A stretch of DNA of 64,000 nucleotides from Bacteroidetes bacterium GWF2_40_14 (lineage in GTDB: Bacteria > Bacteroidota > Bacteroidia > Bacteroidales > UBA932). The notes beneath the pieces are model-generated. The model was given only the letters and a program-made list of their open reading frames with translations, was not told the DNA's origin and ran no database searches. Shown here in pieces: positions 18,672 through 31,529 of this stretch. Made by a program: the position numbers and the translations under genes. The stretch is from the NCBI GenBank assembly GCA_001769195.1, contig MEOK01000020.1, positions 66,797-130,796 on the forward strand, read 5' to 3'. Within the stretch, counting starts at the first letter, position 1; each line of letters begins with the position of its first letter.

Positions 18672-20153
18672 ATGCTAAACCATTTTGACATTAAACAAAT
18701 TGAAGAGAGAGGAGGTTCTGTGGAGTCGGTTTTGAGAGAGATAGAGTTTTTCAAAAACGGATTTCCATACCTTAAAATTGATGCTCCTGCAACCCCGGAA
18801 AGAGGAATTAAGCAACTGAAAAAGGAAGAACAGGATATGGCCGTCCAGCAGTTTGAGGAGTTTACCGGGAGTGTATGTAAATTCGTACCTGCGTCAGGAG
18901 CAGCATCCAGAATGTTCAAGGAGTTGTTTGACGGACTTACATTGCTGGAGAAAGGTGAGGATATAGATCCGAAATCTTCTGTTAATCACTTTTTTGAAAG
19001 AACGGACAGTTATGCATTTTACAGCGACCTTATAAAGATGTCTGATTTTAATGCTGCTGACAGATTGTCGGTTATCAGAAAAACATTGTCTAGTCCCGGT
19101 CTGAACTATGCTTCAATGCCAAAGGGATTGATAAAATTTCATAAATATACAGAGGAGACACGGACTGCATTTGAAGAACATCTGGTTGAAGCAGCTCTCT
19201 ATGCAAAAGGTAAGAATGGTATAGCGAAACTGATTGTGACAGTATCTCCTGAACATGTAACAGGCTTCAAATCCCTTTTCGAAGAGGTAAGGAGCAAATA
19301 TGAGAATAGGTATGACGTAACCTACGATGTAATATTTACTCTTCAAAAACCTTCAACAGATACTATTGCTGTAGATGAGAACAACGAACCATTCAGAAAA
19401 ACTGACGGATCATTGTTGTTCAGACCCGGCGGGCATGGGGCTTTGATAGAAAACCTTAATGATATAAATGACGACATCGTAATTATAAAGAATATTGACA
19501 ATGTGGTCAAAGAGAAACTTTTATCTGATACAATAAAATGGAAAAAAGTATTGGGAGGGGTTCTTTTATACTATCAGGAAAAGATATTCAACTATATAAA
19601 TATATTGGACGGAGAACTTGATAGTCAGATTACAACTGAAATAAAAGATTTTTTAGAAAGGGAGTTCTGCATTAAGCTTCCATCTGTACCAGATTCAATT
19701 TTCACAGAATTTCTGCGGGCAAAACTAAACAGGCCACTAAGGGTTTGCGGTATGGTTAAAAACCTTGGTGAACCAGGAGGGGGGCCATACATCGTTTACG
19801 ATGCAGACGGCTCCACATCGCTCCAGATTCTCGAAAGCGCCCAGCTTGACATGAATAATCCGGTAACAGCACATCTGATGGAACGGGCCACTCATTTTAA
19901 TCCGGTGGACATTGTCTGTTCATTCAAGGATTACAAGGGAGAAAAGTTTGATCTGAATAAATTTGTAGATCATGAGACAGGCTTTATCTCATATAAAAGT
20001 CTTGAAGGACGTATCCTAAAGGCTCAGGAACTACCGGGTTTATGGAATGGTGCAATGAGTCAGTGGAACACTCTCTTTGTTGAGGTTCCGGTATCAATTT
20101 TCAACCCGGTAAAGACAATATTCGATCTTTTAAGACCTGAACATCTGGATTGA
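18672..20153 (+). CDS. DUF4301 family protein
   Basis: This 493-residue soluble protein fits DUF4301, a family I know mainly from Bacteroidota. Notable conserved-looking stretches are FVPASGAASRMFKEL near residue 75, which resembles the glycine-rich nucleotide loop of sugar nucleotidyltransferases; LFRPGGHGALIENLNDI near 250; and LGEPGGGPYIVYDADG near 370. A nucleotide-dependent transferase activity is plausible but unproven. It lies 6 bases after pdxB, so a link to vitamin B6 or cell-wall precursors can only be guessed from position. It ends 5 bases from the convergent gene at 20159. Confidence 0.75.
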   Translation: MLNHFDIKQIEERGGSVESVLREIEFFKNGFPYLKIDAPATPERGIKQLKKEEQDMAVQQFEEFTGSVCKFVPASGAASRMFKELFDGLTLLEKGEDIDPKSSVNHFFERTDSYAFYSDLIKMSDFNAADRLSVIRKTLSSPGLNYASMPKGLIKFHKYTEETRTAFEEHLVEAALYAKGKNGIAKLIVTVSPEHVTGFKSLFEEVRSKYENRYDVTYDVIFTLQKPSTDTIAVDENNEPFRKTDGSLLFRPGGHGALIENLNDINDDIVIIKNIDNVVKEKLLSDTIKWKKVLGGVLLYYQEKIFNYINILDGELDSQITTEIKDFLEREFCIKLPSVPDSIFTEFLRAKLNRPLRVCGMVKNLGEPGGGPYIVYDADGSTSLQILESAQLDMNNPVTAHLMERATHFNPVDIVCSFKDYKGEKFDLNKFVDHETGFISYKSLEGRILKAQELPGLWNGAMSQWNTLFVEVPVSIFNPVKTIFDLLRPEHLD

Positions 20154-20158
20154 TTTCA

Positions 20159-20542
20159 CTACTTAATTTTCTTTGAAAATTTTTTGGACAGGAGCTGTTC
20201 CAAAAGAATAAGTATGACAGTGTTGACTCCTATAATTGACCAACGGGAAACATATTCGTTGCGGAACATTATTGCAAAATCATTTATATAACCTTTTATC
20301 GCAGATGTCATGGCATCTGCCTTGATATGAAAGAAATACCTGTTAAGCAGAAACATGCTTGCAATAAATGCAAGGGTGCAGAAAATCAGAAAGAGAGACT
20401 GAGTTATGTTCTCATTTCTTTTCTCTCTTCTATTTTTTTCTTCTTCAATCCTTTTCATGACATCGGTAGAAAAATTATAATTCATCTGGTGGGTTTTTAG
20501 CCGAGAGAAAACGTCACTAAGTTGTTGGTCAAGATTATCCAT
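20159..20542 (-). CDS. Small membrane protein cotranscribed with an ECF sigma factor; possible anti-sigma factor
   Basis: I do not recognise a named family. The 127-residue protein has a cytoplasmic, charged N-terminal segment of about 45 residues, a first membrane helix at about 47-67 (SLFLIFCTLAFIASMFLL) and a second near 101-118. The gene overlaps the end of the sigma gene by 8 bases, the arrangement usual for ECF sigma/anti-sigma pairs. The N-terminal segment could bind the sigma factor, but it has no zinc HxxxCxxC motif. Function is inferred from position only. Confidence 0.65.
   Translation of the reverse strand: MDNLDQQLSDVFSRLKTHQMNYNFSTDVMKRIEEEKNRREKRNENITQSLFLIFCTLAFIASMFLLNRYFFHIKADAMTSAIKGYINDFAIMFRNEYVSRWSIIGVNTVILILLEQLLSKKFSKKIK
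20165..20185 (+). terminator. Weak AT-rich hairpin after DUF4301
   Basis: AATTTTC and GAAAATT form a 7-bp stem with a 3-base loop followed by four T. It lies inside the 3' end of the convergent gene. The stem is weak, so termination is uncertain. Confidence 0.3.
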
Positions 20543-21098
20543 AAACTACCTCCCTGGTATCATTAATAATAAGATTGAGCTGCTTTTTTATTCGGTGTAG
20601 CCGGGTCTTGACGTTTGATTCGCTCATTCCGGTAATTTCCATAAGCTCCTTTATTGTTTTTTCATTCATATAAAAAGAGAGAATGAGAAATCTGTCTTTT
20701 GGTTCCAGCTGTACGAGCGCTTTTTGCAATATTACGTACAAAATCTCGCGTTCATCCCTCTTTTCCGAAACAGAATCATCATCAGAGAGTATCTCACAGT
20801 TGTTGCCATCGATAGAAACATTATTCCTCTTTTGTCTTCTTGTTCTTGAAATAGCCATGTTATATGCTATTCTGTATACCCATGTAGAAAAGGAGCACTC
20901 TCCCCTGAAGCTTTTGAGTGAGAAAAATGCTTTTACAAAAACATCCTGTGAAACCTCCTCTGCATCCTCCCTACCCGAAACGACACCCAGCACCAAATTG
21001 TAAATATTGGATGAATGCCTCTCTACAAGTTCTTTGTAAAGATGTTCCTCACCCGATATAATTCTTGTGATAAGCAGTTTCTCCTCTTCTCTTGTCAT
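20535..21098 (-). CDS. ECF-type RNA polymerase sigma factor
   Basis: The 187-residue protein has sigma region 2 (LVERHSSNIYNL, DAEEVSQDVFVKAF, FSTWVYRIAYNMA) and region 4 with a helix-turn-helix (KTIKELMEITGMSESNVKTRLHRIKKQL), and no region 3 - the ECF layout. It should direct transcription of a small regulon. A TGTAAC-N16-CGTC motif directly upstream suggests it activates its own gene, and the same motif faces the divergent gene at 21221. The start at 21098 is only about 11 bases after the CGTC element, so the transcript is nearly leaderless. The stimulus is unknown. Confidence 0.93.
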   Translation of the reverse strand: MTREEEKLLITRIISGEEHLYKELVERHSSNIYNLVLGVVSGREDAEEVSQDVFVKAFFSLKSFRGECSFSTWVYRIAYNMAISRTRRQKRNNVSIDGNNCEILSDDDSVSEKRDEREILYVILQKALVQLEPKDRFLILSFYMNEKTIKELMEITGMSESNVKTRLHRIKKQLNLIINDTREVVYG

Positions 21099-21108
21099 AC
21101 GTTTATAA

Positions 21109-21134
21109 GACGCAACTATTTATGTAAAGTTACA
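21109..21134 (-). promoter_or_regulatory. ECF-type promoter of the sigma gene
   Basis: On the minus strand TGTAAC (21129-21134) is separated by exactly 16 bases from CGTC (21109-21112), the usual form of ECF-dependent promoters (AAC in the -35 and CGTC in the -10). An identical motif with identical spacing faces the other way at 21158-21183. Confidence 0.7.
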
Positions 21135-21157
21135 CGAAAATCCGCAACAAAGGAAAA

Positions 21158-21183
21158 TGTAACCTTTTATTGATACCCTCGTC
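21158..21183 (+). promoter_or_regulatory. ECF-type promoter of the divergent membrane protein gene
   Basis: TGTAAC (21158-21163), 16 bases, CGTC (21180-21183). Initiation near 21190 would leave about 30 bases of leader before the ATG at 21221. Identity with the motif on the sigma side makes a shared regulator very likely. Confidence 0.7.
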
Positions 21184-21220
21184 ATATTAGCAAAACATAA
21201 ACAATTTAACATTTACTATT

Positions 21221-21649
21221 ATGATGGAATTTATCTCGATCCCCCTTACATTCGGCATAGGTGCATATGCTTTCTACAAAATCGTAGAGCTTTTCGTAAG
21301 GAAAAAAGAGCGTCTGCTTATTGTGGACAAACTCTCCTCTCTGGAAGGTATTTCAAGTGAAAAACTTGATTTTTCCAAATTATTTCCTCAGGAAAAAAGC
21401 GATAAAGGTCAGTATCTCGCTCTAAGATTCGGATCCCTCATCGTTGGTCTTGGCCTTGGTTTGTTGGTCGGATACTTTTTAGGTCTTGCTTCATATTCAG
21501 GTTATTCAGTAACATCCAATAATGAAATGTATTACCGAGTAAGAGATAATCTGGAACTGATTTATGGTGCTTCTACTTTGTTATTTGGAGGGCTTGGTCT
21601 TATAGCGGGATTTCTGATGGAATACAAGATACGGAAGAACAACAAGTAG
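21221..21649 (+). CDS. Small membrane protein (DUF6249-like), predicted ECF sigma target
   Basis: The 142-residue protein has an N-terminal membrane helix (about residues 5-22), a charged cytoplasmic stretch (KKERLLIVDKLSSLEG), and two further helices (about 68-92 and 113-133). It resembles small DUF6249-type membrane proteins that often accompany ECF sigma genes in Bacteroidota; this naming is tentative. Its promoter has the same ECF motif as the divergent sigma gene, so it is probably a regulon member and might take part in signal transmission. It ends at a good terminator. Confidence 0.65.
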   Translation: MMEFISIPLTFGIGAYAFYKIVELFVRKKERLLIVDKLSSLEGISSEKLDFSKLFPQEKSDKGQYLALRFGSLIVGLGLGLLVGYFLGLASYSGYSVTSNNEMYYRVRDNLELIYGASTLLFGGLGLIAGFLMEYKIRKNNK

Positions 21650-21667: not shown

Positions 21668-21714
21668 GGGGCATGACGCTGATTCTCTAGAACCAAGCTC
21701 ATGTTCCTTTTTTT
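21668..21714 (+). terminator. Intrinsic terminator after the ECF target gene
   Basis: GGGGCATGA pairs with TCATGTTCC (two G-U pairs), extended by GCT/AGC past a bulge, and is followed by seven T (21708-21714). Confidence 0.7.
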
Positions 21715-21729
21715 ATTTGGAATAATTCT

Positions 21730-21737
21730 TATATTTG
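21730..21737 (+). promoter_or_regulatory. Predicted -7 box of the LruC lipoprotein gene
   Basis: TATATTTG matches TAnnTTTG, directly after the preceding terminator. Leader to the ATG at 21773 would be about 32 bases. No -33 TTTG at standard spacing. Confidence 0.4.
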
Positions 21738-21772
21738 CCGAAAATAGCGAAAAACTGCATAATATATTAATT

Positions 21773-23782
21773 ATGAAAACTTCTGCATCAAAGAAAATCT
21801 TCTTTCTTTCTTTTTGTATTTTTGTATTGTCATCATGCTTGAAATTGTCACCAAATAACCAGGAAGATCCAAAAGTATATTTCGATTTTGCCACGACCGG
21901 CAACTATTCATTCTCTCTTGATTACAAGACATCATTCAATTCTCCTATAGTATTTTACATATATGATGAATACCCCTTTGTTCCTGTAGCAAATGATCCG
22001 GACAGAGAGGTTTTTAAAACCGGACTTAATCCAATCTTAAAGGGTATTACTGAAAACTTCGGCAAATATACTGGAATAGTCAACATTAAAAAGACAGTAA
22101 ATCAATTGTATGTGTATAGCACTACCTTGGGGGTGCCGCAACTACTTAAGTCTTCCTTTGCAAACAACAAGTTTACTGTAGATGCAAGCAGCACTGCAAG
22201 CTATATTACTGCAGCTGTTGATGTGAAGAGCAGCGAAATGATAACCCTTAATGGTTCAATACCCGGATACACAACATTGGGAACATGGAACAGTTCTGGC
22301 AGACCCAACTATCTTATGTCGCCAAATGCAACCATATCTGCAGGACTGATAAATGTAGTGAACTCATCTTTGCCGGAAGGCACACGGGTACCGGAAAGAA
22401 ATCCCCAATTCATTACAAACGGGGCAAGTTCAGCGTTACGAATTATTGAAGATGCAACAGTAGAGGTTGTATTCATTCATGAAGGTGCTGATTATAGAAA
22501 TGCGCTTGGGTACTTTCATTATCCTACAAGCAGTCCTCCATCAAGTATTAGTTCTATAAGCAGAATCATCGCATTTCCAAATGTTTCTTATTCAGGCAGC
22601 GGAGGTGGACTTGCATCGGGCAACAGAGTACAGTTACAGTATTGGAACGGCACTACCTTGACTAATGTATTTCCGGCTGGCACTAGTATTGGCTGGTTCA
22701 TTGCTGCCAATGGTTGGAATTCAAATGGGACAATCAATCAAAGTGCGCAACATTATTATTCTCTTGAGCAGTTTAACCCGGAGACAAACTCACTGTTGAG
22801 ACCTCATAATGTTCTGCTTTATGACCCCCAAAGACAGTTAGTAGTGCTTGGTTTTGAAGATCTTAATAGAGCTTTTGGTTCTGATGACGACTTTAACGAT
22901 GCCGTTTTTTATGCTGTTGGCACTCCTGTGACAGCTATAGATTATGATGACCTACCTGTAGTTGTTGATCCTACGGATACTGACGGAGATGGAATTCCAA
23001 ATGACAGGGATGAATTTCCAAACGATCCTGATGTTGTCTATTCAACACATTATCCATCTCTTAACACATATCATTCAGTGGCTTATGAAGATTTATGGCC
23101 AAGCAGGGGTGATTATGACATGAACGACGTGGTTGTTTCATACAACTCTACCCATTTCCTTAACGGAGCAAACAAAATTGTGAAAATTACCGACAGAATC
23201 AAACCATTGTGGTCGGGAGGTATTCTAGACGTAGGCTTCGGTTACCAGATGGGAGTTTCTTCTTCTTCTGTAAGCAGTGTTAATAAAACCAGTACATTTA
23301 CAGATAACAGTTTCAGATATCAGCTGTCGGCAAACGGTACTGAACAGTCACAATCCAAAGCCACTATTATGGTATTCGACAACGTAACCACATTGGGTCT
23401 GACAGGGACTGGGGCAAAACCGGTTTTCAACATCGATATAAGATTCACATCTCCTGTGACAATTGACCAGGTAACTACTCCGCCTTACAATCCGTTTATA
23501 GTTGTCAACAATAATAGCAGGGGGAGAGAAGTACACCTGCCGAATTATCTTCCTACTGAATTGGCTGACAGCAGACAACTGGGAAGTGCCAATGACAAAT
23601 CGGACCCTTCTCAGAATCGCTATTACGTTTCTGACGATGCAATGCCTTTTGCAATCCTGATTCCGGAGAATTTTGAATGGCCTACAGAATCAGTGAACAT
23701 TGGTGTCTATTATCCGAAATTCCTTCAATGGGCAAAATCACTTGGAGTAGATTATCCCGACTGGTACCTGTATCCGAGGTAA
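21773..23782 (+). CDS. LruC domain lipoprotein with DUF4114 and DUF4842 regions
   Basis: The chosen start at 21773 gives a 669-residue protein with a lipoprotein signal (MKTSASKKIFFLSFCIFVLSSC; lipid-modified cysteine about residue 22). An upstream ATG at 21701 lies in the terminator and promoter region and is rejected. The middle holds a DUF4114-like part (VLGFEDLNRAFGSDDDFNDAVF), then a calcium-binding thrombospondin-3-like loop (DTDGDGIPNDRDEFPNDPD), then the LruC/DUF4842 part with DYDMNDVVVSYN. Members are exported or surface-anchored in Bacteroidota; the ligand is unknown. The gene stands alone and ends 8 bases from a convergent gene. Confidence 0.85.
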   Translation: MKTSASKKIFFLSFCIFVLSSCLKLSPNNQEDPKVYFDFATTGNYSFSLDYKTSFNSPIVFYIYDEYPFVPVANDPDREVFKTGLNPILKGITENFGKYTGIVNIKKTVNQLYVYSTTLGVPQLLKSSFANNKFTVDASSTASYITAAVDVKSSEMITLNGSIPGYTTLGTWNSSGRPNYLMSPNATISAGLINVVNSSLPEGTRVPERNPQFITNGASSALRIIEDATVEVVFIHEGADYRNALGYFHYPTSSPPSSISSISRIIAFPNVSYSGSGGGLASGNRVQLQYWNGTTLTNVFPAGTSIGWFIAANGWNSNGTINQSAQHYYSLEQFNPETNSLLRPHNVLLYDPQRQLVVLGFEDLNRAFGSDDDFNDAVFYAVGTPVTAIDYDDLPVVVDPTDTDGDGIPNDRDEFPNDPDVVYSTHYPSLNTYHSVAYEDLWPSRGDYDMNDVVVSYNSTHFLNGANKIVKITDRIKPLWSGGILDVGFGYQMGVSSSSVSSVNKTSTFTDNSFRYQLSANGTEQSQSKATIMVFDNVTTLGLTGTGAKPVFNIDIRFTSPVTIDQVTTPPYNPFIVVNNNSRGREVHLPNYLPTELADSRQLGSANDKSDPSQNRYYVSDDAMPFAILIPENFEWPTESVNIGVYYPKFLQWAKSLGVDYPDWYLYPR

Positions 23783-28132: not shown

Positions 28133-28999
28133 ATGGTAATTCTTGACGGAAAGGCAACAGCAGACCAAATTAAGATAGAAATAGCTGAAAAGGTTGAGGA
28201 TATTATTAAAAAAGGGGGCAAAAGACCTCATCTTGCAGCCATTCTGGTGGGTGATGATGGTGCTTCACAAACATATGTAGGACACAAGGAAAGGGCCTGT
28301 GTACAGGCTGGCTTTAAATCTACAATACTTAGATTCCCAGCTGAGACCTCCGAGGAAAAGCTACTTGAGGAGATTGCATTAATAAATGCTGACAACGACA
28401 TCGATGGACTGATTGTTCAGTTGCCGTTACCCAAGCATATCAATGAACAGAAGGTTATTGAAGCTATTGACCCAATGAAAGATGTTGACGGTTTTCACCC
28501 TGTGAATGTTGGCCGTATGGTACTCGGGCTTCCATCATTTGTGTCAGCAACTCCCGACGGCATTATGGAACTGATTTCACGATATAAAATTGAAACAGCA
28601 GGTAAACATTGCGTTATTATTGGGAGAAGCAACATTGTCGGAAGGCCAATGGCTAACTTGCTTTCACAAAAATCAAACCCGGGAGACTGCACCGTTACCA
28701 TGTGTCACAGCAGGACAAAAAATCTAAAGGAACACACACTTCAGGCAGACATTATAATTGCTGCACTTGGAGTGCCGGGATTTCTCAAGGGTGATATGGT
28801 TAAAGAGGGTGCAGTAGTTATAGATGTCGGTATAACAAGAGTGAAAGCCGATACTAAGACCGGCTTTCGTTTGGCAGGGGATGTTCTGTTTTCTGAAGTT
28901 TCACCTAAATCATCTTTTATAACTCCCGTACCTGGTGGCGTTGGACCAATGACAATAACGTCATTGTTGAAGAATACCCTAAAGGCTTCCGGAAACTAG
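28133..28999 (+). CDS. folD: Bifunctional methylenetetrahydrofolate dehydrogenase/cyclohydrolase
   Basis: FolD interconverts 5,10-methylene-, methenyl- and 10-formyl-tetrahydrofolate. The 288-residue protein has the catalytic lysine in [15 protein letters not shown], the substrate motif GLIVQLPLP, the aspartate in [11 protein letters not shown], and the NADP-binding [11 protein letters not shown]. The C-terminal [15 protein letters not shown] signature is intact. The TAG stop shares the tetranucleotide CTAG with the stop of the convergent receptor gene. Confidence 0.96.
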
Positions 29000-29006
29000 T
29001 TACCGG
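28989..29006. other. Near-palindrome centred on a shared CTAG double stop
   Basis: The 18 bases form CCGG-a-AACTAGTT-a-CCGG, symmetric at 16 of 18 positions, with the two convergent TAG codons sharing the central CTAG. No T-tract follows on either strand, so a role in 3'-end formation is only a possibility. Confidence 0.3.
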
Positions 29007-31425
29007 CTGACACCCTCGTGGCCTCTTCCGATATTCCAACCTTTCTTGCCTTGGCAGCTTTTCCCTGTCCGAACCTGTAGCTGAAACTCAGCACAATCTG
29101 TCTGCTTCTGTAGGAAGAGTGGAATTCATACCCGTTAAGTATACTATTGCTAAGATCTGCCCTTGTAGTCTGAGTGTTTAGTATATCGGTCATATTCAGT
29201 GATAAAGTGGCTTTGTTGTTCATCATGTTCTTCTTTGCACCAATTGAGAGATCTCCACTAGGTTTAACAACAAAATACCCGTAAGGAATACCCGATTGAA
29301 AATTACCTGTAATCTCAACTTTATAGTTTTTTGGCAGAAGAAATGCAGCATTGGCTGTTCCTTGTGCGAACAAAGAACTTCTAGTATAATCAAGATCCTT
29401 GTTTGAAACATTGGCAAGGAAACAGTTAGCATTCAATACCAGCCATTTTGTCACAACCAATTCTGTAAGAGATATTGTGGCACCAACAAAGGACTGATGT
29501 CCGAAATTCTCCCACTTAAGCATTTTTTCTCCTGTCGATGGATTGAAATATGGATTCTGAATTATTACACCATTAGAAAACTGTCCATCTATGCTTACTG
29601 TAAGGTTTTTCATAATTCCAAGTGACAGGCTCAATCCATGACTGAATTCAGGGTCAAGGTCCGGATTTCCCTCCAGTGAACTGCTTGCATCAACGTACAT
29701 TCTGAACGGATTAAGCTGGTAGAAACTTGGTCTTTTTATCCTGTATGTATATGAAAGCCCGAATCTCAAGTTGTCGTTGGGAGTATATCCCAAAAATGCT
29801 GTTGGAAACAAGTCAAGATATTTTTTTGATGTAAGAGTGTCGGCACTTATCCATTCTCCCTTTGCATTAGTGAGTTCTGCCCTTATTCCTGCTTTTGCCG
29901 TCCATTTAGTGCTAAATTGTTTAGCCAAAGAGAGATATGCTGCCGATACATCCTCGGTATAATTGAACTTGCTACTGAGTAGGTTGTTTTTTGTCCAAGC
30001 ATTATTTATTTTGTCTTCTCTTACAAGGTCGTTGTCTGTCTTACTTTCTGCCCATTTTATCCCAGCTTCCAGCTTTGCTTTCTTCCATAGTGTCTGTTCA
30101 AAGTCTGCCTTTACAGATTTTATATTGATATATTGAGCCGAATTGCTTTGAAAAATATCAGGAACCCTTGTCTGGTTATTTGCTGCATTTAAAAATTCGT
30201 TTGTCTGGAAACTATAGTTGCCTATATCATAATAGCCCCAGTCTGCATTAACCGTAATCTCCTGATTATCCTTGAAAATATGGGTGTAATTAAGATTACC
30301 CGAGAAGTTGCCAAAGTTTCCCTTATTGTCTATACCTGTATTTATCTTCTCTGTTAAAGTGCCGTTTTCGTACAACTTACTGCCGGTGACAGGATCATAT
30401 GTGTTATCCTCTGAGTTCCTTATAAAACCTGAGAGAATTACACCAAATGTGTTTTGTTTGTTTATAAATATATCATTTGAAACCTTGAAAGAGTTATTAT
30501 GTACAATTCTGTCTACTTCTGTGTTTCCTTTCAATATTTTACCGCCTCCAAGATTGGTTGTGGAGTTAAATATGTTGAATGTCTCATTGTATCTGGGACT
30601 GTATGAAACAGAAGTACTGGTCTTTTCTCCTCTGTAATTCAGATTTAACGTTCCATCTGCTCCCTGATAATATCTGGTATATGGAGCAGATGTATAACCA
30701 GCTCTCATGGAACCATTTATACCCTTTACGAAGTTCTTCTTTGTCCGAATGTTTATTATGCCACCGCTACCCGATGCATCATATTTTGCTGAAGGATGCG
30801 CAATTATCTCAATTTTATCTATTGTGGCACCATCTGTTCCGTTGAGTAACGATTCAAGTTCCTGGCCTGAAAGGTAGGAGGGTCTGCCATCGATCCAAAC
30901 CTGCACTGCTGAACCGTTCAACAGTATATTTCCATCGGGATCTATGCTGATACCAGGAGCCTTCCTCAAAACGTCGAGTGCATTGCTACCCTGAGTGGCA
31001 ATTGCATCGGCGACATTCATCACAATCTTATCTAGTTTTTGCTCAATAACCGGAATCCTTGCAGTCACTACTGCAGATTTAAGAGTCACTGCATCGGTCG
31101 CAAGAGCAATCGTTCCAAGATCGATGTTGGTTGCATTTTCTGCAATCCTTATGTTTAAGGTTGTATCCTTAAATCCTATGAATGATACCTTGACATTACA
31201 AACACCAAAAAGAATATTGTTAACAGTGAATTTCCCATCCTCTCCCGATGTAGCACCTCCGATGATTTTCTTTTCGTTGTTTAAAATACTTACTGTTGCA
31301 AAAGGGAGAGCATTTCCATTCTCCTTTTCAATTACTTTGCCATAAATTATGCCGCTGTTTTTTGCAGCAAAAGCACTGCTGAATATTAAAATTGTCAGTA
31401 ACAGGCTTAAAAATTTGTTATACAT
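28996..31425 (-). CDS. TonB-dependent-type outer membrane beta-barrel receptor
   Basis: From ATG 31423-31425 the protein is 809 residues with a clear signal peptide ([20 protein letters not shown]); an upstream ATG at 31449 adds eight residues before it and is less likely. Residues about 25-105 are a carboxypeptidase-regulatory-like repeat ([21 protein letters not shown]). A plug domain follows ([29 protein letters not shown]), then a barrel of alternating strands ending in [10 protein letters not shown]. The barrel is of the outer membrane beta-barrel family common in Bacteroidota; there is no SusD partner, so the substrate is unknown. It lies downstream of the GntR-ABC operon in the same direction. 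Confidence 0.87.
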
Positions 31426-31529
31426 AGATTGTTTAAAATATAAATACATTGTTATACATAGTTGTTCTTACACACTTTTAGACGCAGAATATTGTCAAAT
31501 AGTTGCACTCTTCTGAATATTTTTTTAAT

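Follow-up and report, generated by a model that had tools for sequence, protein, structure and literature searches.

A divergent ECF promoter pair recurring across Bacteroidota between a sigma factor gene and a DUF6249 gene suggests a private, autoregulated signalling unit

In a stretch of 64,000 nt from Bacteroidetes bacterium GWF2_40_14 (contig MEOK01000020.1, positions 66,797–130,796; hereafter the window), an ECF sigma factor gene is separated from a gene for a small membrane protein by two ECF-type promoters lying back to back. This divergent layout recurs across Bacteroidota and, judged by comparison of sequences, looks like a private signalling unit that switches itself on. We consider it highly probable that the three conserved proteins involved, namely the sigma factor, a co-encoded membrane partner and a DUF6249-family protein, constitute a private, autoregulated ECF sigma switch. 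In the proposed mechanism, the partner would hold the sigma factor until an envelope signal frees it, and RNA polymerase carrying the freed sigma factor would, on comparative evidence, fire both promoters. The sigma-side promoter would yield more sigma factor and, through the overlapping genes, more partner, thus providing gain together with a built-in brake. The other promoter would yield the membrane protein DUF6249, which, apart from the sigma operon, is the sole target with a strict match in the genus and presumably belongs to the membrane signalling unit. Although the promoters are alike, their transcripts would differ: the sigma mRNA is predicted to start almost at its AUG, while the DUF6249 mRNA would carry an ordinary 5′ leader. 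The near-leaderless start may lower the sigma yield per transcript and thereby damp runaway feedback. The scheme is built on features read directly from the sequence, namely the two conserved promoters, the gene order, the gene overlap, the co-inheritance and the distance to the start codon.

Gene arrangement and conservation of the promoter pair

The sigma factor gene (20535–21098, minus strand) encodes 187 residues and is a member of the ECF family (group IV). Regions 2 and 4, the latter with related region-4 models, were recognized by Pfam Sigma70_r2 (3.5e-13), Sigma70_r4_2 (1e-10) and TIGR02937 (2.5e-28), no region-3 model was matched in the profile search, and a sigma tree was also used for the assignment. 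The gene for the 127-residue membrane partner (20159–20542, minus strand) overlaps the sigma gene by 8 nt and is followed by a convergent DUF4301 gene (18672–20153, plus strand). On the opposite side lies the gene for the DUF6249-family protein of 142 residues (21221–21649, plus strand), assigned from a Pfam match of its alignment and an AF2 model. About 50 nt beyond it starts a gene for an LruC-domain (DUF4842) and DUF4114 protein (21701–23782, plus strand).

The first-pass annotation had placed TGTAAC-N16-CGTC promoters of identical sequence and spacing at 21134–21109 on the minus strand and 21158–21183 on the plus strand. Both were confirmed: TGTAAC-N15/17-CGTC matches the window exactly twice, on opposite strands and both times with N16, where 0.08 matches are expected (sd 0.27), and none of 100 shuffles of the window gave two matches. 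Both words and the spacing are identical, but the 16 spacer bases differ. The first promoter (21109–21134) ends 10 nt before the sigma ATG, and the second (21158–21183) 37 nt before the ATG of the DUF6249 gene at 21221; motif count and comparison support both.

The strict form TGTAACY-N15-CGTC has 49 matches across the 25 genomes of the genus, and 42 of them make up 21 divergent pairs beside the sigma gene. The pair is present at this gene in each of the 21 congeneric genomes that have a sigma orthologue, whereas no site was found in the four without an orthologue (G002, G004, G005 and G019; Fisher p 8e-5, uncorrected for kinship). The best sigma match in these four, three of which are 80–90% and one 99% complete, is only a paralogue, with E values of 1e-24 to 2.4e-17; in the other genomes the E value is 2.6e-34 or lower. 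When 393 Bacteroidales genomes were searched for the divergent pair by DNA pattern only, 14 matched, and the reversed control gave none. In thirteen of these 14, among them the window's own genome and the congener G010, an ECF sigma gene lies on one side of the pair and a DUF6249-type gene on the other. Because the pattern admitted gaps of at most 32 nt and only 16-nt spacers, little can be concluded from the lack of a match in the other 379 genomes. In the exceptional case (L186), the pair is flanked by genes that, judged by eye, are ABC-transporter-like on one side and TolC-like on the other, with no adjoining sigma gene. This pair (1501–1565 of that locus), next to a MacB-like ABC transporter gene, is a possible extra target in that genome.

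A wider set was then assembled from the best 30 sigma loci of a scan of 60 relatives, the best 80 from a scan of named genomes and the 14 DNA matches. A sigma gene was found in 123 of these 124 sources, and removal of four duplicates and 41 loci scoring below 150 bits, mostly from other phyla, left 78 listed loci. None of the 41 low-scoring loci carries the sigma-side motif. Among the 78, the DUF6249 gene is divergent in 57, its frame lying wholly within 700 nt; it is otherwise on the opposite strand in 8 and on the same strand just upstream of sigma in 4. No DUF6249 gene was found beside sigma in the remaining nine (L030, L031, L034, L035, L044, L047, L054, L056 and L061), although the contig of L047 ends 543 nt upstream. 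Both promoters are present in 54 of the 57 loci with a divergent DUF6249 gene, or in 43 of 46 once the loci chosen by DNA pattern are left out; one or both motifs are missing in L062, L073 and L080. The pair was found, for example, in Phocaeicola vulgatus ATCC 8482 (L040), Bacteroides oleiciplenus, Muricauda, Maribacter and Flavobacterium. A quick sigma tree with a midpoint root, in which 41 of the 111 inner branches stay open, places every one of the 62 rows labelled divergent in a single 77-row set (SH-aLRT 92).

Of 56 module loci, 31 have the word TAnnTTTG on the sigma strand of the intergenic region, against 2 with the word on the other strand. It is absent from the window; elsewhere it may be a basal primary-sigma promoter of the sigma gene or represent the reversed A-rich leader of the DUF6249 gene.

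The membrane partner and the DUF6249 protein

The 127-residue partner is likely the anti-sigma factor, as suggested by the presence of homologues beside the sigma loci, the gene overlap and the AF2 model (pLDDT 86, pTM 0.43). The model contains helices at residues 3–15, 22–71, 75–94 and 96–126 and fits a short cytoplasmic clamp followed by two transmembrane helices; transmembrane segments of both small proteins were assigned by eye. Besides M1, only F24 is near-invariant in the family. No Pfam family was matched by the partner, nor any common to more than one of 36 family members, its model gave no PDB fold match, and the HxxxCxxC zinc motif of class I anti-sigma factors was not seen in its sequence by eye. 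In CnrY-type class II anti-sigma factors, a short cytoplasmic two-helix part wraps the sigma factor (PMC7406223), and the predicted N-terminal layout of the partner is similar, but no sequence or fold match to this type was found.

The 142-residue protein alone matches DUF6249 (PF19762) weakly, with 28.4 bits against a cut-off of 33. However, all 34 members of its alignment match the family at E ≤ 0.01, the best at 9e-20. Its AF2 model (pLDDT 79.5) comprises helices at residues 3–41, 66–92 and 101–141, and a PDB fold search with this model gave nothing at E ≤ 0.001. An invariant E30 and a near-invariant R31 follow the first hydrophobic stretch. In the open-licence literature, no paper was found that links DUF6249 or DUF5056 with sigma factors, DUF6249 appearing only in unrelated plant work. 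Likewise, no open-licence paper was found combining ECF sigma factors, Bacteroidetes and the TGTAAC/CGTC words, the literature leads on ECF03 gave no promoter, and the excerpted texts of PMC12596196 and PMC9308784 contain nothing that matches a DUF6249–sigma–partner system.

DUF6249-like frames were also observed directly upstream of ECF sigma genes, on the same strand, in Ignavibacteriota and spirochaetes (L077, L081, L086, L093, L100 and L117). Both proteins tested, from L077 and L081, reach the Pfam DUF6249 cut-off, the one spirochaete protein tested with 33.4 against 33. A profile built only from Bacteroidota gave values near noise for three spirochaete frames (E 0.03 to 0.9) and did not list two others. 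The earlier spirochaete matches of the iterated profile were inflated, because it had learned from these frames.

Since DUF6249 accompanies the sigma factor and the partner in both the divergent and the single-operon layouts, we place it within the signalling unit instead of counting it as just one of many effectors, and it appears to be a conserved third component. The same association with the sigma gene in both layouts, together with the DUF6249-like genes preceding sigma genes in Ignavibacteriota and spirochaete loci, could instead mean that DUF6249 itself is the anti-sigma factor and the 127-residue protein an accessory. We regard this as unlikely, since it is the partner gene that overlaps the sigma gene, that has a homologue beside 76 of the 78 listed sigma loci, including all nine without DUF6249, and whose product has the N-terminal layout resembling class II anti-sigma factors (PMC7406223). 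The partner is thus retained as the candidate anti-sigma factor and DUF6249 as the third member of the unit.

Recognition by one sigma factor, targets and leader length

An ECF-type promoter precedes the operon of the sigma factor itself, as in an autoregulated pair. Its spacer is 16 nt in nearly all Bacteroidales loci (exceptions L034, L035 and L060) and 17 nt in those Flavobacteriia loci that have the motif. More importantly, the two spacers of a locus are equal in 54 of 55 cases (16/16 in 46, 17/17 in 7 and 18/18 in 1), and only L075 combines 17 with 16. Although related loci are not independent, these matched spacers are the best sequence evidence for one sigma factor reading both promoters, as we infer. 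In combination, the agreement of the spacers, the presence of the pair in genomes with the sigma orthologue and its absence from those without, and the genes flanking the DNA-found pairs support the self-amplifying circuit that the first-pass annotation had claimed, with the neighbouring sigma factor reading both promoters. The flanking genes of 13 of the 14 pairs likewise favour the second membrane protein, which it had listed as a member, as the partner output of the circuit.

ECF promoters of the general AAC/CGTC type are common to many ECF factors, and the genome contains 25 sigma-like matches, so the promoters could be real and yet be read mainly by another ECF sigma factor, with no self-amplification. 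This appears improbable for several reasons. The four congeneric genomes without the sigma gene retain 8 to 15 other sigma-like matches and have no site, the spacers agree within loci across the whole sigma tree, and a paralogous DUF6249-linked module, described below, uses a different word, TGCAAC-N17-NGTC. It is less probable still that GTTACA...TGTAAC, the inverted repeat made by both -35 words together, is an operator for a dimeric repressor rather than part of two promoters, since the gap between the words varies from 3 to 177 nt across loci, which is too variable for a single dimer site, the distance from word to CGT is 16 or 17 in each promoter with few exceptions, and no repressor gene adjoins in the window. 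The gaps cluster near 3–5, 22–26, 28–34 and 44–49 nt; helical phasing is not claimed, the kinship of the loci being uncorrected.

The reading of the pair as two promoters of the neighbouring sigma factor leads to the question of further targets. The first-pass annotation had expected the motif to find the rest of the regulon. This expectation did not hold: only 7 of the 49 sites in the genus lie outside the locus, all within open frames of 210 codons or more, although two short frames also begin 58 and 74 nt after one of them (L197). With six wrong spacings, 135 matches were counted in the genus, or 22.5 each, and two wrong spacings of the same codon phase gave 10 and 18; the off-locus strict motif is therefore without excess, with at most a mild depletion (p 0.03). 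A wider regulon defined by the strict motif was thus rejected. The scan of the window's own genome that had been proposed, allowing one mismatch at most, returned 33 sites (2 exact) against 79 in the reversed control. Of the one-mismatch sites, 28 were inspected, and three more were without a locus. Only one of them, L164, is clear of long frames and shortly followed by a long gene (490 codons, at 28 nt), and its -10 element reads AGTC; at L154 and L168, the site falls close to where one frame ends, 48–49 nt ahead of the start of another.

In six named Bacteroidales genomes, 12 of 17 sites form six pairs. Three of the other five (L204, L212 and L215) are within long open frames. The site L210, in P. 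vulgatus, precedes a gene for a CarbopepD_reg protein by 67 nt. The last, L205, precedes the ATG of a lipoprotein-like gene by 13 nt, and the open frame of this gene continues upstream of that ATG. The N17 form gave a pair at the locus in five of six other genomes, and two sites 15 kb apart in the sixth, Pedobacter. As off-locus sites are few, the sigma circuit appears to be private, although some genomes may have one or two further targets.

Nineteen of the 25 genus genomes encode another, more distant DUF6249, which adjoins a sigma paralogue and in some of them also a second partner. In all 20 loci fetched (L235, at G000:C28:56600-58900, and L236–L254), this DUF6249 gene precedes the sigma gene on the same strand, and the partner follows in 18. 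One tested partner is a DUF5056 protein, and one tested DUF6249 protein reached 81.9 bits. A promoter-like word, TGCAAC-N17-NGTC[TA]A, lies before 19 of the 20 operons; its -35 word has another third base than the first type, and the spacers of the two types differ by one base in length. The base preceding GTC is A or C in 18 and G in one, and L243 has CGCAAC. The word mostly overlaps the end of the upstream frame, whose coding could therefore explain part of its conservation; in 4 of the 19 loci the frame stops before GTC and the -10 element is still present.

Unlike the TGTAAC motif, the TGCAAC-type word does mark a regulon, as judged from its sites: 50 were counted in the 25 genomes against 1 for the reversed pattern, a control not matched for codon use. 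The genes behind 17 further sites were judged by eye: at 11 sites this is a GIN-type lipoprotein gene (one tested is DUF2807), at 4 an outer-membrane barrel-type gene and at 1 another gene, while 1 site has none. The window itself contains a TGCAAC-N17-CGTCTAA promoter (31478–31507, minus strand) 28 nt before the ATG of an outer-membrane barrel gene (28996–31449, minus strand; OMP_b-brl_3, 1e-89). We infer that the second sigma factor reads the TGCAAC-type sites, and the lipoprotein and barrel targets suggest, by analogy, an envelope role for both modules.

The two sides of the first promoter pair differ in the distance to the start codon. With the ATG nearest to the start expected by the profile, the distance from CGTC to the sigma ATG is 8–14 nt in 60 of 67 listed loci and 6, 15, 28, 37, 37, 75 and 79 nt in the other seven. 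On the DUF6249 side it ranges from 19 to 111 nt over 56 loci, none within 8–14 nt. If ECF start sites lie 6–9 nt after CGTC, the figure also used by the first-pass annotation, the sigma mRNA of the window would start about 2–5 nt before the AUG and, by this distance, should be near-leaderless. Short leaders are rare in the phylum, with about 3.7% of leaders below 10 nt in B. thetaiotaomicron (PMC7366714) and 5.5% leaderless in F. psychrophilum (PMC9723704). A precedent for a leaderless ECF sigma mRNA is promoter p1 of M. tuberculosis sigE, which differs from the sigE promoter described as SigE-recognisable (PMC4921905). The near-leaderless start offers a concrete, testable idea of how a self-amplifying switch may be damped. 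Combined, these observations lead us to propose, more tentatively than the switch itself, that DUF6249, an ECF sigma factor and a two-transmembrane partner form an undescribed three-protein membrane signalling module dating from the base of Bacteroidota or further back, and that it runs as a nearly closed loop whose gain is set by the leader asymmetry. If the loop is indeed nearly closed, the only strict outputs of the sigma factor are the sigma factor itself and DUF6249.

Comparison with known systems

The system appears to work like an ordinary autoregulated ECF sigma/anti-sigma pair. The SigW promoter of Bacillus subtilis is of the AAC-N16-CGT type, similar to the promoters in the window. 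However, RsiW is a zinc-type class I anti-sigma factor, and SigW has a wide regulon, whereas the strict motif marks two promoters here. Among PDB sequences, SigW was also the one that the sigma profile matched best (5wuq, 6e-34).

Among Bacteroidales systems, EcfO-Reo and Das/Dma (ECF21; Bacteroides, Phocaeicola) likewise combine an ECF sigma factor with a co-encoded membrane anti-sigma factor and count their own operon among the targets (PMC13114119, PMC13088901). In contrast, their anti-sigma factors span both membranes, and Dma ends in a beta-barrel, while the partner here has 127 residues and an all-helical model, without a C-terminal barrel. The excerpted descriptions of both systems do not mention DUF6249 (PMC13114119, PMC13088901). 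CirY-CirZ of Phocaeicola vulgatus is similar in being a small ECF sigma/anti-sigma operon that induces itself, but it continues with spy and two more genes (PMC13114119). The window operon ends after the partner; no spy-like gene lies downstream, the next gene being the convergent DUF4301 gene, and in the module copy of P. vulgatus ATCC 8482 (L040), too, the partner is not directly followed by a gene on its own strand. On the anatomical features tested, EcfO-Reo, Das/Dma and CirYZ were therefore rejected as the identity of the module.

One study found an adjacent class I anti-sigma factor for only 6% of Bacteroidetes ECF factors (PMC7406223), which leaves open how most of them are restrained. 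The module contributes a candidate family of anti-sigma factors, one promoter word per sigma type for two types, and a membrane protein family, DUF6249, linked to sigma control. The first-pass annotation had mentioned neither DUF6249 as a third component nor the near-leaderless start of the sigma mRNA nor the paralogous module and its different promoter; all three are added here.
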